From the NCBI RefSeq assembly GCF_017873555.1, contig NZ_JAGGKE010000016.1, forward strand, positions 1 to 50,652: a stretch of DNA of 50,652 nucleotides, given 5' to 3'. The notes below the pieces were generated by a model, which worked only from the letters and a program-made list of their open reading frames with translations, searched no databases and had not been told where the DNA came from. This DNA comes from Halorubrum trapanicum. Its GTDB lineage: Archaea; Halobacteriota; Halobacteria; Halobacteriales; Haloferacaceae. The position numbers were made by a program, and so were the translations under genes. Of this stretch, positions 15,529 through 23,940 are shown in pieces (position 1 is the stretch's first letter; each line of letters opens with the position of its first letter).

Positions 15529-16527
15529 TTACAGCCGGTCGACGATCGCCGCGGTGACCTCGTCGGTCGCCGCGGCGCCGCCGAGGTCGCCGGTTCGCGG
15601 GCCGTCGGAGAGCACGTCCTCCACGGCGTCGCGCACGCGCGTCCCCTCCTCGACGTGGCCGAGGTACTCCAGCAGCATGGCGGCCGACAGGATCGCCGCC
15701 GTCGGGTTCGCGACCCCCTCGCCGGCGATGTCGGGCGCGGTGCCGTGGACCGGCTCGAACAGCGCGTTGTCGTGGCCGACGTTCGCGGAGGGGAGCAGCC
15801 CCAGTCCGCCCACGAGTCCGGCGGCCAGGTCGGAGAGCACGTCGCCCGCGAGGTTCGGGCAGACGATCACGCCGTACTGCGTCGGGTCGAGCGGGAGCTT
15901 CGTCGCGAACGCGTCCATCAGCTCCTCGTCGGCGTCGACGCCGCGCTCGTCGGCGACCGCGAGCACCTCCTCGCGGAAGCGCCCGTCGGTCTCGCGCATC
16001 ACGTTCGCCTTGTGCGCGACGGTGAACCCCTCGTCGGGGTCGCCCGCGGGGCCGCGCCCGTCCCCGACGAACTCGCAGGCGTACTCCGCCAGCTCCCGCG
16101 AGGCCGACGAGGTGACGACCCGCGTCAGCGTCGAGAGGTCCTCGGAGAGGCGGTCCTCGTGGCCCGCGTAGACGCCCTCGGTGTTCTCGCGGAGGAACAC
16201 CACGTCGGTCTCCGGCCGGAGCGCGTCGACGCCGGGGTACGCCACCGCGGGTCGGACGTTGACGAACGAGTCGACCGCCTCGCGCAGCGGGAGGATGACG
16301 TCGGCGGCGGTCTCGCCGGCCGCGCCGAACAGCGTCGCGTCCGCGTCCCCGACCGCGTCGTACGTCTCGGCGGGGAGCGCCTCTCCCGTCTCCGCCTTCG
16401 TCGCGTCGCCGGCCTCCGCCTCGACGAACTCGAAGTCGAGGTCGAACGCCTCCAGCACCTCGACGGCGGCGGGGACGACCTCGCGGCCGATCCCGTCGCC
16501 CTCGATGACGACGACCTCGTGGCTCAC
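15529..16527 (-). CDS. leuB: 3-isopropylmalate dehydrogenase
   Basis: A 332-residue isocitrate/isopropylmalate dehydrogenase family member. It oxidises and decarboxylates 3-isopropylmalate to 2-oxoisocaproate, the third leucine step. It opens with [22 protein letters not shown] and carries [12 protein letters not shown] (substrate-binding loop) and the family signature [27 protein letters not shown] with the metal-binding aspartates. It is the last gene of the ilv-leu operon, and its start overlaps the leuD stop by 4 nt. Context separates it from isocitrate and homoisocitrate dehydrogenases. Confidence 0.93.
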
Positions 16528-17192
16528 GCCTCGTCCCCCGCCGCGGTCTCGGACACGTGTTCGTCCGGAACGTACGGCAGCGACCGGGCAGTCTCGCGGA
16601 CCGCGCCCTCGTTCGCGCCCATCAACGCCGTGGTGTCCCAGACACCCTCGACGAGCGCCTTCCGCTGGGCGTCGTAAACCGTCGCGTCGATCACGGTGTC
16701 GCCGTAGGCGATCGTCTCCGCGGCCACGTCGATGTCGACCTCGGCGTCGGGGTCGGTCTCGACGTAGTCCTGCAGCGCCTCGATCTCCTCCTGATCGGCC
16801 GTGACCGTCGGGATACCGAGCGCGAGGCAGTTGCCCGCGAAGATCTCCGCGAACGACTCGCCGACGACCGCGTCGATCCCCCAGCGCATCAGCGCCTGCG
16901 GGGCGTGCTCGCGCGACGAGCCGCAGCCGAAGTTGGCGTTGACGACCAGGACGTTCGCGCCCTTGTACTTCTCCTCGTTGAACGGGTGGTCCTTCTCGTT
17001 GTCCTCGTCGTCGAACCGCTGGTCGAAGAAGGCGAACTGCCCCAGCCCGTCGAAGGTGACGACCTTCATGAACCGCGCCGGGATGATCTGGTCGGTGTCG
17101 ATGTCGTTGCCCCGGACCGGGATCCCGGTGCCGGAGACCTCGGTGACCTTCTCGGCCGGCGACTCGCCGTCGCTGAACTCGGGCGAGCTCAT
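16524..17192 (-). CDS. leuD: 3-isopropylmalate dehydratase, small subunit
   Basis: A 222-residue aconitase-swivel subunit that completes isopropylmalate isomerase with LeuC. Markers are [14 protein letters not shown] near the N terminus and [15 protein letters not shown] in the middle, both part of the substrate pocket. The longer, acidic bacterial-type form (about 220 residues rather than the 160-residue type) is present. The ATG overlaps the leuC stop and its stop overlaps the leuB start, both by 4 nt, so three genes are translationally linked. Confidence 0.94.
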
Positions 17193-18610
17193 ACGGTCGC
17201 CACCTCCTCCATCTCGCGGACGTCGGTGACCTCGCCGGTCACCGCCGCGGCCGCGACCATGATCGGACTCATCAGCACGGTGCGCCCGTCCTTCGAGCCC
17301 TGCCGGCCGACGAAGTTCCGGTTCGACGAGGAGGCGCTCGCCTCGTCGCCCTCCAGCTGGTCGTCGTTCATCCCGAGACACATCGAACAGCCGGGCTCGC
17401 GCCAGTCGAAGCCGGCGTCTTTGAACACCTCGTCGAGCCCCTCGGCCTCGGCGGCGTCGCGGACTCGCTGGCTGCCGGGAACGACCATCGCGCGCACGTC
17501 GTCGTCGACCTCGCGGCCCTCGACGAACGCCGCGGCCTCGCGGAGGTCCTTCAGCCGCGCGTTGGTACACGAGCCGAGGAACGCCACGTCGATCTCGTAC
17601 CCCTCCATCGTGTCGCCCGGCTCGACGCGCATGTGCTTTTGCGCGCGCCGTGCCGTGTCCTGGTCCTCCTCGGACAGCTCGTCGGGGTCCGGGATCGGTT
17701 CGGTGATCCCGGCCGTCTGGCCGGGCGTGGTCCCCCACGTGACGGTCGGCTCGATCGCCGAGCCGTCGATGGTGACCACGTCGTCGTACTCGGCGTCGTC
17801 GTCGGTCCGGATCGACTCCCAGTAGGGTTTCAGCCGCTCGAACTCCTCGGGGTCGTCCTCGAAGGCGTCCGTCTCCTTGAGCCACTCGTAGGTGGTCTCG
17901 TCGGGGTTGACGTACCCCGCGCGGGCGCCGCCCTCGATCGACATGTTACAGATGGACATCCGCCCCTCCATCCCGAGGTCCTCGATGGCCTCGCCGGCGT
18001 ACTCGTACACGTGGCCGACGCCGCCGTCGGTCCCGAGCTTCCCGATGATCGTGAGGATGACGTCCTTCGCGGTGACGCCCTCGCCGAGCTCGCCCGTGAC
18101 CTCGATCTTGCGGACCTTCTGTTTCTCCATCGCGACGCAGCCCGTCGCCAGCACGTCGCGGATCTGCGAGGTGCCGATGCCGAACGCCAGCGCGCCGAAC
18201 GCGCCGTGCGTCGACGTGTGCGAGTCGCCGCAGACGATCGTCATCCCCGGCTGGGTGAGCCCCTGCTCCGGCCCGATGACGTGGACGATCCCCTGATCGC
18301 CGGAGTCCGGATCGGAGAAGTCGATGCCCGAGCCGCGGACGTTCTCCTCCAGCTCCGCCATCATGCTCTCGGCCGCGTCGTCGCGGTAGGGGCGGTCGCG
18401 GTTCCCGGTCGGCACGATGTGGTCGACCGTCGCGTGCGTGCGCTCCGGGAACGCGACCTCCTGCCCGCGCTCTTTCAGCATGCCGAACGCCTGCGGGCTG
18501 GTGACCTCGTGGACGAGGTGGAGCCCGACGAACAGCTGGTCCTGTCCGGTGGGTAACCGCGTCACCGTGTGTCGGTCCCACACCTTGTCGTACAGCGTCC
18601 CCTCGCTCAT
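17189..18610 (-). CDS. leuC: 3-isopropylmalate dehydratase, large subunit
   Basis: A 473-residue aconitase-family protein that isomerises 2-isopropylmalate to 3-isopropylmalate with a [4Fe-4S] cluster. Cluster ligands are Cys in [12 protein letters not shown] and the pair in GCSMCLGMN. Other landmarks are [23 protein letters not shown]. The ATG at 18610 ([14 protein letters not shown]) is preferred; a GTG two codons earlier is in frame. The ATG overlaps the stop of a 24-codon frame that itself touches the ilvC stop. Confidence 0.95.
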
Positions 18611-18681
18611 CGGCACTCACCCGTGTGGCGCGTGGGGTGTGCGGTGTCGTCCGGCCGGTTCGCGCCGCCGCGTACGCCCAT
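18607..18681 (-). CDS. 24-codon ORF bridging ilvC and leuC
   Basis: A tiny frame, [12 protein letters not shown]...RHTGECR, fills the 70-nt gap between ilvC and leuC. Its ATG shares one base with the ilvC TGA (TGATG) and its TGA overlaps the leuC ATG. If translated it would couple the two genes by termination-reinitiation. The peptide is basic and Gly/Arg-rich, unlike most haloarchaeal proteins. In GC-rich DNA a 24-codon frame is easily open by chance, and any gene starting ATGAGC has a TGA in this frame, so the call is tentative. Confidence 0.38.
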
Positions 18682-19739
18682 CAGGCGGTCACCTCGGCGC
18701 TCTCCTCCTCGTCGTCTTCGGCCGACTCCTCCCACGCGAACAAGCCGCGGAGCTCCTCGCCGACGGCCTCGATCTCGTGGTTCTTCTCGGCGGTCCGGAG
18801 CTGGGTGTAGGAGGGCCGCCCAGCCTGGTTCTCCGCGATCCACTCGCGGGCGAACTGCCCGTTCTGGACCTTCTCCAGCACTTCCTCCATGTTCTCGCGG
18901 GCGTGCTCGTCGACGACCACGTCGCCCTGCGTGAGTCCGCCGTACTCCGCCGTGTCGGAGACGGAGTCCCACATCTCGCCCAGCCCGCCCTCGTACATGA
19001 GGTCGACGATGAGCTTCAGCTCGTTGAGACACTCGAAGTACGCCATCTCCGGCGAGTAGCCGGCGTCGACGAGCGTCTCGTACCCCTGCTTCACGAGCGA
19101 GGTGACGCCGCCGCAGAGGACGGCCTGCTCGCCGAACAGGTCGGTCTCGGTCTCCTCGCGGAACGACGTCTCGACGACGCCGGCGCGGGTACAGCCGATC
19201 GCGGCCGCGTACGCGAGCCCCTCGTCGTGCGCGTCGCCGGTGGCGTCCTGATACACCGCGAGCAGGCCGGGCGTCCCCTCGTCGTTCTCGTAGTTGCGGC
19301 GGACGAGGTGGCCCGGCGACTTCGGCGCGACCATCGTCACGTCGACGTCCTCGGGCGGCTGGATCTGGTTGTAGTGGATGTTGAACCCGTGCGCGAACTG
19401 CAGCGTGTCGCCCGCGTCGAGGTTCGGTTCGATCGCCGCCTCGTACACGTCCGGCTGGACGGTGTCGGGGACGAGGACGCTCACCACGTCGGCCTCGGCG
19501 ACCGCGTCGGCGGGGGCCTCCACGCGGAGCCCGTCGCTTTCGGCGGCGGCCCGCGAGGAACTGTCCTCACGGAGACCGACGACCACGTCGACCCCGCTGT
19601 CCGCGAGGTTCTGCGCGTGGGCGTGGCCCTGCGAGCCGTAGCCGAGGACGGCCACGGTCTTGTGTGCGATCGCCTCCTCGTCGGCGTCTTCGTCGTAGTA
19701 TACTGTCGAGTCGAACGTCTGGGTGTCGTCTTCGGTCAT
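18681..19739 (-). CDS. ilvC: Ketol-acid reductoisomerase (class I)
   Basis: A 352-residue NADPH-dependent enzyme that rearranges and reduces acetolactate or acetohydroxybutyrate, the second step of valine and isoleucine synthesis. The Rossmann motif is [17 protein letters not shown]. Catalytic acids fall in the knotted C-terminal domain ([13 protein letters not shown] and [17 protein letters not shown]). An acidic tail of about 15 residues ends the protein. It follows ilvN by 45 nt in the same operon. Confidence 0.96.
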
Positions 19740-19784: not shown

Positions 19785-20504
19785 TCAGTCGTCGTGGGTG
19801 GTCGGTTCGCCAGCCGTCCCGGGCTTCTCTCCGGGCGCGGTCGGAGTGTCGCCGCGCGCGAGGGCGGTCGGTCCCGTCCGCGCGATCTCGACGATGCCGA
19901 ACCGCTCGAACGCGCCGATCGCGTTGTCTATCTTGGCGTTGTCGCCGGTGAGCTCGACGGTGATCGTCTCCGGGCCGGCGTCGACCGTCCGTCCGTCGTA
20001 CATCTCCGAGACGGCGTGGACCGCGGCGGGGTCGTCGGCCTCGACCTTCAGCAGGACGAGTTCGGAGGTGACCGCGTCGCCGGCGACCTCGCCGACCGAG
20101 ATGACCGGCTTCAGCTTCGCCATCTGCTTTTCGATCTGGTCGATCCCGGGATCCGTCTCCTCGACGACCATCGTGATCCGCGAGTGGCCGTCGACGGTCG
20201 TCGGCCCGACGGTGAGGCTCTCGATGTTGAACTGGCGGCGGGAGACGAGTCCGGAGACGCGCGCGAGCACGCCCGGCTCGTCCTCGACGAGCGCCGAGAT
20301 GACGGCGCGCCGCGACCCGTGTTCGGCCTCGACGACGGGGTCGATCCGGATCCCTTCGAGGTTCCGGCGCCCCTCGGGATGGTCGCGCTCGTCGGGACCG
20401 GGCTGCTCGCCCGGCAGGGGTCGGGAGTCGGTCTCCGGCGCGCCGGCGTCGGAGGCGGAGCCCCCGTCTGTCGCGGGCCGGGAGTCGGGCGAGTCGCCGC
20501 TCAT
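19785..20504 (-). CDS. ilvN: Acetolactate synthase, regulatory (small) subunit
   Basis: A 239-residue regulatory subunit for IlvB. Residues about 65-140 form the ACT domain (AVISALVEDEPGVLARVSGLVSRRQFNIESLTVGPT), the usual site of valine feedback inhibition; a second half (LVLLKVEADDPAAVHAVSEMYDGRTVDAG) follows. The N-terminal 60 residues and the C-terminal 30 are acidic, low-complexity extensions. Its ATG overlaps the ilvB stop by 4 nt, which fits the one-to-one assembly of the two subunits. Confidence 0.94.
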   Translation of the reverse strand: MSGDSPDSRPATDGGSASDAGAPETDSRPLPGEQPGPDERDHPEGRRNLEGIRIDPVVEAEHGSRRAVISALVEDEPGVLARVSGLVSRRQFNIESLTVGPTTVDGHSRITMVVEETDPGIDQIEKQMAKLKPVISVGEVAGDAVTSELVLLKVEADDPAAVHAVSEMYDGRTVDAGPETITVELTGDNAKIDNAIGAFERFGIVEIARTGPTALARGDTPTAPGEKPGTAGEPTTHDD

Positions 20505-22312
20505 AGCTGGTCCTCCGCGGCCGCGAACTTCCCGTTCGCGCCGCCGCTCGGCACCATCGGCAGGACGTTCTCCTCGGGGTCGACGTGGAAGTCGACCACG
20601 GCGGGACCCTCGTAGTCGAGCGCCTCCTCGACGGCGGGCGCGACCTCGTCGTAGTCGTCGACGCGGATCCCGAGGGCGCCGAACGCCTCCGCGAGCTTGT
20701 CGAACTCGGGCATCCACGTGTAGTCGGAGGCCATGTGGCGGCCCTCGTAGAAGGCGTCCTGCCACTGTCTGACCATCCCGATGTACTCGTTGTTGAGCAC
20801 CGCGATAGTGACGTCCAGCTCCTCGCGGACGGCCACCGACAGCTCCTGCATCGTCATCAAAAAGGAGCCGTCGCCGTCGAAACACACCACGTCGCGGTCG
20901 CTCTCGCCCATCGTGTCGGCGGCGACGCGCGCGCCGACCGCGGCCGGCACGCCGTACCCCATCGTCCCCAGCCCGTGCGAGGAGACCCACGTCCGCGGCT
21001 CGGAGTACGTCCAGAACTGCGAGGCCCACATCTGGTGTTGGCCGACGCCCGTGGTGACGATGGCGTCGTCGTCGGTCGCCTCGTCGAACGCCTCGACGAC
21101 GAACTGTGGCTTCAGCGGCTCGTCGTCGGGGGTCGCGTACGTGAGCGGGTACGTCTCCTTCCACTCCGCACACCGGTCGCGCCACGCCTCGGTGTCGGGC
21201 GCCTCGCGGACCGCCGCGGTCAACTGGTCCAAGACGCGCCCCGCGTCGCCGATGAGGGGGTAGTCGGCGTGGACGTTCTTCGAGATCTCCGCCGGATCGA
21301 TGTCGACGTGGATCACCTCGGCCTCGGGCGCGAAGGTGTCGATCCCGCCCGTGAGCCGGTCGTCGAACCGCGTGCCGACCGCGATCAGGCAGTCGGTGTG
21401 AGTGATCGCGAGGTTCGCGTAGCCGGTGCCGTGCATCCCCGCCCACGAGAGACTGAGGTCGTCGTCCTCGGGGAACGAACCGATACCCGGCATCGTCGTC
21501 GTCACCGGGATCCCGAAGCTGCGGGCGAACGTCCGCGCCTCGTCGCTCGCGTCGGCCTTGATCACGCCGCCGCCGAACAGGCAGACTGGGCGCTCGGCCG
21601 ACTCGATGGCGCGCGCCGCCTCCTCGACGGCGTCCGCGTCCGCGTTCGGGTCGGGGTCGGTGCCCGCGGGCGGCGTCGCCGGACCGGGCGTCCGGTCGGT
21701 CTCGTCCTGCGTCACGTCCTTCGGCAGGTCGACCAGCGTCGGACCGGGGCGCCCGGCCCGCGACAGCTCGAACGCCTCGCCGACGGTGTCGCCGACGGTG
21801 TCGGCCCCGCCCGCGAAGTAATTGTGCTTCGTGACCGGCCGGGTGACGCCGACCGTGTCGGTCTCCTGAAACGCGTCGTTGCCGACGAACTCCGTGGGGA
21901 CCTGCCCGGTCAGCGCCAGCATCGCGTCCGAGTCCATGTCGGCGTCGGCGATGCCGGTGACGAGGTTCGTCGCGCCCGGCCCGGAGGTGGCCATACAGAG
22001 CCCCGGCTCGCCGGCGACGACGCCGTACGCGTCGGCCGCGTGGGCGGCGCCCTGCTCGTGGGCCATCGTCACGTGCCGGATGGACGAGTCGTACAACGCG
22101 TCGTAGACGGGCATGATCGCCCCGCCCTGAACGCCGAAGGCGGTCTTCGCGCCCGCGGCTTCGAGGGCGGCGACGACCGACTCGGCGCCGGTCGAGACGG
22201 CGCCCGCGGCGGGAGCGTCGTCGGCGTCGGGCGCCGAGTCGTCGGCTCCCGCCGCCGGCTCCGCGGAGCCGTCCGGGTCGTCCTCTCGTGTGTGTGCTGC
22301 TGTGTCGCTCAT
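20501..22312 (-). CDS. ilvB: Acetolactate synthase, catalytic (large) subunit
   Basis: A 603-residue thiamine-diphosphate enzyme that condenses two pyruvates, or pyruvate with 2-oxobutyrate, the committed step of branched-chain synthesis. The Glu that activates the cofactor is in MAHEQGAAHAADAYG, and the ThDP/Mg motif is CFDGDGSFLMTMQELSVAV...VLNNEYIGM. About 45 acidic, Ala-rich residues precede the conserved domain. The gene heads the ilvBNC-leuCDB operon, 172 nt after a leader ORF and hairpin (22477-22559), so its transcription may be set by attenuation. Confidence 0.95.
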   Translation of the reverse strand: MSDTAAHTREDDPDGSAEPAAGADDSAPDADDAPAAGAVSTGAESVVAALEAAGAKTAFGVQGGAIMPVYDALYDSSIRHVTMAHEQGAAHAADAYGVVAGEPGLCMATSGPGATNLVTGIADADMDSDAMLALTGQVPTEFVGNDAFQETDTVGVTRPVTKHNYFAGGADTVGDTVGEAFELSRAGRPGPTLVDLPKDVTQDETDRTPGPATPPAGTDPDPNADADAVEEAARAIESAERPVCLFGGGVIKADASDEARTFARSFGIPVTTTMPGIGSFPEDDDLSLSWAGMHGTGYANLAITHTDCLIAVGTRFDDRLTGGIDTFAPEAEVIHVDIDPAEISKNVHADYPLIGDAGRVLDQLTAAVREAPDTEAWRDRCAEWKETYPLTYATPDDEPLKPQFVVEAFDEATDDDAIVTTGVGQHQMWASQFWTYSEPRTWVSSHGLGTMGYGVPAAVGARVAADTMGESDRDVVCFDGDGSFLMTMQELSVAVREELDVTIAVLNNEYIGMVRQWQDAFYEGRHMASDYTWMPEFDKLAEAFGALGIRVDDYDEVAPAVEEALDYEGPAVVDFHVDPEENVLPMVPSGGANGKFAAAEDQL

Positions 22313-22476
22313 TGTCGTGGTGGTGTTCGGTGTGGCATCTGGCGGGTCGTGTCGGTCGCTGCGAACGCGGGACGGGCGGGGTCGCGGGTCCCGGCTCTGG
22401 AGCGAAGCTCCGTGCGTCGGAAACGGCCCGGCCGCCGGCGTTCGGCGGTGCGTCGCGTCGGTGAGGAAGGGGTAGT

Positions 22477-22496
22477 GTAGGGGGTCAGACCCCTAC
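22477..22496 (-). promoter_or_regulatory. Hairpin overlapping the end of the ilv leader ORF
   Basis: On the minus strand GTAGGGG (22496-22490) pairs with CCCCTAC (22483-22477) around a 6-nt loop that contains the leader stop codon. The 5' arm is made of the last Val, Gly and the first base of the final Val codon. A ribosome held at the Ile-Ile-Val codons would stop this hairpin from forming. No T-rich tract follows, so classical archaeal termination at the stem is not obvious. Confidence 0.55.
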
Positions 22497-22559
22497 GATG
22501 ATCGGCGCGACGGCTGCGGGAACGCCCGCTCGCTCCGCGGCCGTGGTGTGCCGTCGCAT
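22485..22559 (-). CDS. Putative leader peptide of the ilv-leu operon
   Basis: A 24-codon ORF beginning MRRHTTAAERAGVP and ending AVAPIIVGV, then TGA. Six residues are Val or Ile, and four of these lie in the last five codons (Ile-Ile-Val-Gly-Val). Its ATG is about 28 nt from the centre of a TATA box, so it would be the first codon of a leaderless transcript. The stop codon lies in the loop of a hairpin, and ilvB starts 172 nt farther on. This is the layout of bacterial ilv leader peptides that sense aminoacyl-tRNA supply. No Leu codon is present. It is inferred from layout only; I know of no described archaeal counterpart. Confidence 0.6.
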   Translation of the reverse strand: MRRHTTAAERAGVPAAVAPIIVGV

Positions 22560-22584
22560 CTCGCTCGGAGCAACGCGGCCGGGG

Positions 22585-22590
22585 TATAAA
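22585..22590 (-). promoter_or_regulatory. TATA box of the ilv-leu operon
   Basis: The minus strand reads GGAATTTATACCCC, a near-ideal haloarchaeal TATA element with a purine-rich BRE-like AGGAA upstream. Expected initiation is at about 22560, directly at the ATG of the leader ORF. Confidence 0.65.
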
Positions 22591-22621
22591 TTCCTGTCGG
22601 GGAACGCAACGCTCCGCCCCT

Positions 22622-22644
22622 CGACGGTCCCGGTGGGACCGTCG
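22622..22644. promoter_or_regulatory. Perfect 10-bp inverted repeat upstream of the ilv TATA box
   Basis: CGACGGTCCC (22622-22631) and GGGACCGTCG (22635-22644) around GGT. It is about 45 bp upstream of the TATA box and 75 nt after the leuA stop. It could be an activator or repressor site for the ilv promoter, or part of the leuA 3' end. Confidence 0.45.
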
Positions 22645-22667
22645 GGGACGACGCGCGGCTCTCTCTC

Positions 22668-22687
22668 GCGACCGCCCGCGCGGTCGC
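22668..22687 (-). terminator. Hairpin after leuA
   Basis: GCGACCGC (22668-22675) and GCGGTCGC (22680-22687) with a 4-nt loop, 32-51 nt after the leuA stop. A stem this close to a gene end may mark the leuA transcript end, but no T-tract follows. Confidence 0.3.
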
Positions 22688-22718
22688 TCGGGGGGCGCTC
22701 CGGTCGAGGAGGGGGGCA

Positions 22719-23940
22719 TCAGACCCGGACCTCCTCCTCCCGCGTGACGTCCGCCTCCTCGGCGAACCGCTCGACGTCGCCGGCCGTCACCTGCCGCTTC
22801 CCGGAGCCGTACTCCTTGACCCGCTTCGTGATCGTCCGGACCTCGCTGTCCGTCGGGTCGAAGCCGGCCTCTACCAAGTGCTTGCGCACGCTGTGGGTGC
22901 CGGTGTGTTTGCCTAGCACGAACTCGCGCTCGGCGCCCACCATCTCCGGGGTCATCACGCCGGTCTCGAACGTGTCGCTGTTCTCGATGACGCCGGCGGC
23001 GTGGATGCCCGACTCGTGGGCGAACGCGTTCCGCCCGGTGACGGGCTTGTTCGCCGGCACCGGGATGTCCGAGGCCTCCTCGACGATCCGAGCCAGCTTG
23101 GTGATCTGGGTCGTGTCGATGCCGGTGTCGACGCCGTACACCGACTCGACCGCCATGACGACCTCCTCGTAGGCGGCGTTGCCGGCGCGTTCGCCGATCC
23201 CGTTGACCGACACCTGCGCCTGCTCCGCGCCGTTCTCGAAGCCCATGACCGCGTTGGCCGCGGCCATGCCGAAGTCGTCGTGGGTGTGGACGTCGACGCG
23301 CGCGTCGGTCGCCTCGACGACGGCCGCCACCGTCTCGCCGAAGCTGGTCGGCATCCCGACGCCGCAGGTGTCGGGGATGTTGATCCAGTCGGTGCCCGCC
23401 TCGGAGACGGCCTCGACGATGTCCACCAGGTAGTCCGGGTCCGTCCGGGTGGCGTCCATCGGCGAGAACATACACTCGACGCCGGCGTCTTTGACCTGCT
23501 CGACGGCGTCGACCGCGCGTCCCTTCGCCTCTTCGCGGGTCGCGTGCATCGAGTCCTCCAGCTGAACGTCGCTGGTGGAGACGAACACGTGGACCATCTC
23601 GACGCCGGAGTCGATGGCTGCCTCGATGTCGCCCTCGACGACCCGCGCCAGCCCGCAGACCGTGGTGTCCGTGGCGGCGGCGATGTCGCTGACGGCCTCG
23701 AACTCCGCGTCCGAGTTGACCGGGAACCCCGCCTCGATGACGTGGGTGTTCATGTCGTCCAGCGTCGCCGCTATGCGGCGTTTTTCATCGTAGCTGAACG
23801 ACGTCCGCGGTGACTGTTCTCCGTCTCGCAGGGTCGTGTCGAAGATCCGTACAGGACCGATTTCGACGTTAGAAGCTATTGTGCCCTGGAAGAACTCGAT
23901 CCGCCGGGGTGTCCGACGAAGCCTCCGTGATGTCTGTCAT
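22719..23940 (-). pseudogene. leuA: 2-isopropylmalate synthase family (LeuA) gene with a 5' frameshift
   Basis: The enzyme joins acetyl-CoA to 2-oxoisovalerate, the first leucine step. From 23753 to the stop the frame is intact (344 codons), with HTHDDFG metal ligands and GVGMPTSFG. Upstream, the same frame carries the expected IEFFQG and IFDTTLRDGEQSPRTSFSYDEKR, but has no start codon before an in-frame TGA. The expected start, ATG at 23940 (MTDITEASSDTPADR), is one frame away; a TATA box 27 nt upstream supports it. The break is at 23895-23901, in GCGGATCGAG, and could be explained by loss of one GATCG unit from a doubled GATCG. It may be a true mutation or an assembly error. There is no C-terminal LeuA allosteric domain. 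A citramalate synthase role is not excluded. Confidence 0.8.

Follow-up and report, generated by a model that had tools for sequence, protein, structure and literature searches.

Leader-peptide attenuation is a textbook mechanism of gene regulation in bacteria. The attenuators of ilvGMEDA, ilvBN, thr, leu, and trp in Escherichia coli each combine a leader peptide carrying cognate codons with a hairpin, and the pheST attenuator of the same bacterium places a cognate-codon leader peptide before an aminoacyl-tRNA synthetase gene. Cognate-codon leader peptides also precede the synthetase genes trpS and leuS of Streptomyces (PMC1262725). The described systems most alike to the element reported here are the ilvB leaders of Actinobacteria, namely the ilvB-II motif of Corynebacterium and its counterparts in Mycobacterium and Streptomyces, in which an ORF with Ile, Val, and Leu codons overlaps a hairpin upstream of ilvBNC (PMC1262725, PMC10272879). 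In Corynebacterium, this leader is located about 150 nt before ilvB (PMC1262725, PMC10272879). The Streptomyces leader also carries a warning for any attenuation reading, since mutations of its codons were without effect (PMC1262725).

Here we describe an element of haloarchaea that shares this arrangement. We consider it likely (probability of roughly 0.8) that this element, which is kept throughout the class Halobacteria, controls the ilv-leu operon by leader-peptide attenuation, with ribosome stalling and regulation being inferred.

The ilv-leu operon of Halorubrum trapanicum and its leader

The window, i.e., the whole stretch of DNA that was analysed, comprises 50,652 nucleotides. The original prediction placed an ilv-leu operon downstream of a short leader, and ilvB, ilvC, leuC, leuD, and leuB were found there, all on the minus strand. 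The enzyme genes begin with ilvB (20501-22312), encoding the large subunit of acetolactate synthase (TIGR00118, 695 bits). The others are ilvC (ketol-acid reductoisomerase, 18681-19739, TIGR00465), leuC (isopropylmalate dehydratase large subunit, 17189-18616, TIGR00170), leuD (isopropylmalate dehydratase small subunit, 16524-17150, TIGR00171), and a leuB-type isopropylmalate dehydrogenase gene (15529-16527), for which TIGR02088 was the best match but scored below its cut-off. The start of leuD is approximate; TIGR00171 matches residues 247-417 of the ORF at 16524-17885. Upstream of the leader lies a leuA/citramalate synthase gene (22770-23852).

The leader itself, also on the minus strand, begins with a TATA box (TTTATA, 22585-22590); no other box of this kind was found in the 700 bp preceding ilvB in the Halorubrum loci. 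The ATG of the leader ORF, hereafter uORF1 (22485-22559), occupies 22559-22557, which is 26 nt past the TATA box. uORF1 encodes the peptide MRRHTTAAERAGVPAAVAPIIVGV in 24 codons followed by TGA (22487-22485). Its last codons read Ile-Ile-Val-Gly-Val-stop and fall within a 7-bp hairpin, and the putative regulatory codons among them are Ile(ATC)-Ile(ATC)-Val(GTA), at 22494-22502. The hairpin, GUAGGGG-UCUGAC-CCCCUAC (22477-22496), is supported by comparison, and has its 5′ arm at 22496-22490, its loop, with the stop codon, at 22489-22484, and its 3′ arm at 22483-22477. The coordinates and description that the original prediction gave for the TATA box, the ORF (with its start at 22559), and the hairpin held, including the 24 codons, the Ile-Ile-Val-Gly-Val end, the 7 bp, and the stop in the loop. 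No match to Rfam was obtained for the region 22200-22800 up to E = 1, covering riboswitch, T-box, and leader families.

Conservation and codon content of the ilvB leaders

A first scan for ilvB relatives returned 80 loci. In every one of these with enough upstream sequence, GTAGGGG occurred in a short ORF upstream of ilvB; the only two loci without it, L050 and L100, are at contig ends. Adding 60 loci of other genera yielded 131 distinct leaders. In Halorubrum, the TATA box and the whole of uORF1, from its ATG over the 24 codons to its stop, are conserved without indels; the stop alternates between TGA and TAA, and the last Val is encoded by GTC, GTA, or GTT. Across the 131 leaders, lengths vary, and the frame, the TATA position, and the placement of the stop are kept. 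In 130 of the 131 leaders, the first base of a TATA-like box lies 29-36 nt ahead of the ATG (mode -32), a geometry that indicates leaderless transcripts. In Haloferax, 72% of the protein-coding transcripts are leaderless (PMC4983044). Hence, the conservation proposed as a check on the prediction, that of a short ORF with an Ile/Val-rich end and a hairpin in other haloarchaea, was confirmed decisively.

The codons at the end of uORF1 are strongly biased. The Val codon is GTA and the following Gly codon is GGG in 131/131 leaders, and the codon before the Val encodes Ile in 130/131. Ile also occupies position -2 in 67 leaders, and position -3 holds Leu (38), Ile (21), or Val (15). Thus, the absence of Leu codons, listed originally as a weak point, is true near the end of the leader in the window, and Leu is common elsewhere. 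Overall, Ile, Leu, and Val account for 78% of the four codons ending at GTA versus 16% of the rest of the leader, and many leaders have only one Ile and one Val codon. The leader codons are also the rarest synonyms, as judged against three genes of the window: GTA accounts for 2/134 Val codons (1.5%) in these genes, and ATT, used in 97/130 leaders, for 0/41 Ile codons. The element therefore contains a short ORF with codons of the regulated amino acids, as attenuation demands, its translation being unmeasured. The third positions of GTA and GGG never vary, which goes beyond what sensing of Val or Gly alone would need and implies that a constraint at the RNA level also acts. No synonymous constraint was detected in uORF1 upstream of the last codons, as expected of a leader; this adds no support for attenuation. 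One variant, L431, has Met in place of Ile before GTA (ATG-GTA-GGG); its hairpin is intact, as is a second ORF that overlaps ilvB by ATGA.

A covariance model (R1) built on the 3′ end of the leader matched 232/242 Halobacteria genomes, covering 69/74 genera. When the phylum was searched, R1 was found in 48/53 Halobacteria and in 0/242 other genomes, and a plasmid collection gave no match. We checked 12 genomes that were negative or marginal for the model. G232, G052, and G057 do carry the leader, G214 and G243 have variant leaders (IVGPA with a compensated stem, and MVGA), and the leader of G058 and G244 has diverged to SIRVRAA and lacks the hairpin motif. No leader was seen in G161 and G206, and the status of G045 (a truncated contig), G066, and G241 was not resolved. 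Most resolvable absences are thus diverged or missed copies, G161 and G206 being the exceptions.

The hairpin and the pyrimidine tract

Folding of the window hairpin as a single sequence was not significant (z = -1.4), so the evidence for the hairpin is all comparative. Its conserved pairing is that of AGGGGN with N′CCCCU. At the sixth pair, which follows GGGG, C:G was observed in 82 leaders, T:A in 33, and G:C in one, and the remaining 15 mostly showed a shifted or wobble register. In L422, the sequence GTAGGGC...GGCCCTAC displays a compensatory change from G:C to C:G at an otherwise invariant position. Loops are 3 to 15 nt long. In 74 leaders the stop codon follows GTA by 9 nt, in 53 by 12 nt, and in another four, which retain the hairpin nonetheless, the ORF crosses it and stops 24 nt past GTA. 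The hairpin has therefore persisted through variation in both its sequence and the length of its loop. Only this one hairpin was recovered by RNAalifold from the leader alignment, without a conserved second stem or antiterminator. By this measure, the classical arrangement of the trp type, with mutually exclusive antiterminator and terminator hairpins, is not present.

The hairpin is followed by the pyrimidine tract CCCCTTCCTC (22463-22472, minus strand), a candidate pause or termination tract. Over 101 loci, G makes up only 3-4% of the 15 nt past the 3′ arm, T reaches 45% at +11 to +15, and TTT occurs within 45 nt past the hairpin in 63. An uninterrupted U run is absent in Halorubrum, including the window. 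The missing T-tract that was originally counted as a weak point thus exists, as a T-rich pyrimidine tract without a real U run.

A second upstream ORF overlapping the ilvB start

The original prediction missed a second ORF, uORF2 (22309-22338, minus strand), which encodes MPHRTPPRQ and ends in a TGA that shares bases with the start codon of ilvB (ATGA). It was recognized from the pattern of AUGs and stops among 128 loci. Between uORF1 and ilvB, 111 AUGs lie in frame +1 to ilvB versus 6 and 2 in the other frames, and the same frame has 4 stops versus 61 and 55. The uORF2 AUG is present in 101 of these loci and missing from 27, and all 101 uORF2s end at a TGA overlapping the ilvB start, mostly as ATGA and sometimes as GTGA. 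The spacer from the uORF1 stop to uORF2 (22339-22484, minus strand) is nearly free of AUGs, with 3 observed versus about 53 expected over the 101 loci. uORF2 displays a weak coding signal (O/E synonymous 1.16); it is almost without Leu, Ile, and Val, though the region is T-poor. In one Halorubrum clade (L052-L059, L065), the uORF2 AUG was lost to ATA, ACA, or ACC, and the frame is still open.

Overlapping start and stop codons in Haloferax are coupled by termination-reinitiation, which is abolished at a spacing of about 22 nt (PMC10666635), and ATGA coupling is efficient in haloarchaea (PMC6728339, PMC10666635). By sequence, uORF2 has the overlap that such coupling requires; the coupling itself is unmeasured. 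It is plausible, by inference from sequence alone, that uORF2 hands ribosomes to ilvB. The hairpin lies 56-182 nt from uORF2, and since reinitiation is lost at about 22 nt, uORF1 is too distant to feed uORF2 in this way. Reinitiation at the uORF2 AUG by ribosomes scanning on from the stop of uORF1 is likewise disfavoured by the spacing and the Haloferax data (PMC10666635).

The phase between uORF1 and ilvB is itself conserved, being +1 in 112/128 loci and in 31/31 Halorubrum loci, the latter with 14 different spacings. Outside Halorubrum, spacer stops in the uORF2 frame number three, all of them in loci of exceptional phase. Substitutions in the spacer carry no coding signal. The phase conservation is unexplained; frameshifting would account for it, but lacks the support of a coding signal.

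Leaders upstream of valS and trpS

Sixteen genomes with two hits were re-searched, and 14 second copies of the element could be read. Thirteen of these lie upstream of valS. These leaders share the GTAGGGG hairpin and encode peptides with C-terminal sequences such as VFVGA, VVVGA, and PVVGA, in which Val but no Ile occurs. In appearance, the valS leader is a second copy of the element at ilvB. Leaders of this type were seen before valS in many Natrialbaceae and in other families (L156-L168, L185, L187, L189-L191, L193, L194, L198). A further leader copy, MRQLDTDSHTAPASGGAVGARLIVGV, with a perfect hairpin, occurs in L155 on the reverse complement at about 1512 (G160:C2:397894-397952), with neither ilvB nor valS directly downstream. 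Other genomes have a different short valS leader, such as MRVVAVVRE or MSAIRSVVRGP, with GTA-GTA-CG. This second type (L173, L175, L180-L183) is 9-11 codons long, ends in SVVR or similar, looks unrelated, and has a T-rich box about 30 nt before its ATG. No valS leader was found in Halorubrum and its near relatives, in which valS looks directly leaderless.

Meanwhile, trpS is preceded, about 335-440 nt upstream, by a uORF with W-R-W or similar in 14 loci, including 13 of the 20 best-scoring ones (L229-L233, L236, L237, L239-L242, L245, L246, L255). These leaders end in a predicted hairpin. The W-R-W leader may conceivably have been acquired along with a bacterial-type trpS. A uORF of 23 aa before trpS (HVO_A0127) is among the 5′-UTR uORFs reported for Haloferax volcanii (PMC4983044). 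That study also gives pheS as uORF-bearing, and we found no convincing Phe-rich leader before pheS in 30 loci. Likewise, no Trp leaders were found before trpD or trpB, and no leaders dense in Ile, Leu, and Val before leuA. The identity of the codons thus tracks the downstream gene for ilvB, valS, and trpS, as attenuation predicts, and this is the strongest argument for it. The Val leaders of valS and the Trp leaders of trpS were absent from the original prediction and confirm it independently.

Proposed mechanism

The promoter geometry, the conserved ORF, its rare cognate codons, the hairpin and tract, uORF2, and the parallels at valS and trpS are shown by the sequences. Stalling, the direction of control, the termination step, and the use of uORF2 are inferred, with no expression, 5′- or 3′-end, or ribosome-profiling data. 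Based on these features, we postulate that the mRNA would start at or a few bases from the uORF1 AUG, so that a ribosome would load in leaderless fashion and trail the RNA polymerase. When Ile- or Val-tRNA is scarce, the ribosome would stall at the rare ATY-GTA codons, with Ile or Val in its A site, and cover the 5′ arm, the hairpin would be blocked, and ilvB would be expressed. No antiterminator would be needed because the 5′ arm begins at GTA, and the stalled ribosome itself would cover it. When the tRNAs are charged, the ribosome would reach the stop in or just past the hairpin and leave, the hairpin would form, and expression would drop. The most likely cause of this drop would be that transcription terminates at the T-rich pyrimidine tract, which lies 11-15 nt beyond the hairpin. 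ilvB would be started by a ribosome delivered via uORF2, whose TGA overlaps its start codon.

We lean towards transcription termination as the controlled step, although this remains an inference. In Haloferax volcanii, termination in vivo reached 59% at a hairpin and 95% at a T5C tract (PMC7237163), and the RNA polymerase co-purifies with ribosomal proteins (PMC8576121); both observations favour transcription attenuation over a translational switch. The original reading, that stalling at Ile or Val codons holds the hairpin open and lets ilvB expression go on, is supported by the conservation, with the stalling, its effect, and the controlled step still inferred.

Alternative explanations

The alternative that survives best keeps the same leader and sensing but places control at translation, the hairpin or the released ribosome altering access to the uORF2 or ilvB start. 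Such a switch is possible. It is favoured by a dedicated uORF2 that ends on the ilvB start codon behind an AUG-free spacer, by the efficiency of haloarchaeal ATGA coupling (PMC6728339, PMC10666635), and by the lack of a true U run in Halorubrum. Against it, the 56-182 nt between hairpin and uORF2 exceed by far the spacing of about 22 nt at which reinitiation was abolished in Haloferax (PMC10666635), the hairpin showed no conserved pairing with the start of ilvB (in an alignment that stops short of that start), and a T-enriched tract at a fixed place fits termination better.

A programmed frameshift at GUAGGGG, which would take ribosomes +1 into ilvB and extend its N-terminus or else -1 in the frame of uORF2 as far as the ilvB start, appears unlikely. 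The +1 phase in 112/128 loci, including 31/31 in Halorubrum, speaks for it, as does the uORF2 frame being free of spacer stops in phase-conserving loci outside Halorubrum. GGG-G is known as a +1-slippery sequence, which also counts in its favour. However, stops in the spacer are most numerous in the ilvB frame (26 versus 3 and 11), also in L031, which is 97% identical in IlvB. An open in-frame extension and spacings in multiples of three had pointed to a +1 fusion between uORF1 and IlvB, which was rejected given the stops in L031, L053, L054, and many non-Halorubrum loci and a substitution pattern that is not coding-like. For the -1 shift, no codon of the site offers good re-pairing, and spacer substitutions in that frame carry no coding signal (O/E 1.06 and 1.03). 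In a bolder version, hungry Ile-Val-Gly codons against the hairpin would cause a -1 slip into the uORF2 frame, termination at the TGA on the ilvB start, and reinitiation. We regard this as improbable too; if true, it would convert amino-acid shortage directly into ribosome delivery to ilvB and explain the phase conservation.

That the ORF is incidental and the palindrome serves as a DNA operator, or as a site for a protein on the RNA, is very unlikely. GTAGGGG is indeed invariant at the nucleotide level beyond codon needs, but a loop of 3 to 15 nt and a widely variable distance to the start are unlike an operator, and the frame, the TATA spacing, and the match of codons to the gene (ilvB versus valS) would be left unexplained. 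A chance ORF without function, compatible with the unremarkable single-sequence folding (z = -1.4), is all but excluded by the class-wide conservation.

Significance and comparison with known attenuators

If leader-peptide attenuation is confirmed, haloarchaea would rely on it class-wide, for valS and trpS as well as for ilvB, and would combine it with leaderless translation starts and the RNA polymerase of archaea. This would provide strong functional evidence for the coupling of transcription and translation in archaea, as well as a ready-made reporter of it. The attenuation reading can be tested directly in Haloferax volcanii.

The original prediction knew of no described case in archaea, and we found no description of archaeal leader-peptide attenuation either, in the open-licence literature that was searched. 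The uORF table available for Haloferax volcanii (PMC4983044) offers no attenuation reading and no peptide sequences, and ilvB1 (HVO_1508) is absent from it. The haloarchaeal leader appears to be a variant of known bacterial attenuation and apparently the first in archaea, with priority not established.

The attenuators of E. coli have competing hairpins and a U run, whereas the haloarchaeal element has a single conserved hairpin. The valS and trpS leaders resemble those of pheST in E. coli and of trpS and leuS in Streptomyces, and differ from them in their archaeal leaderless form. A poly-U terminator is present in the leaders of Actinobacteria, joined in Corynebacterium by an antiterminator. 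In contrast to these, the haloarchaeal ilvB leader combines an archaeal TATA promoter and a leaderless start with an invariant GUAGGGG and a C/T tract, places its stop within the hairpin or shortly behind it, and is followed by a uORF2 that is plausibly coupled to ilvB.
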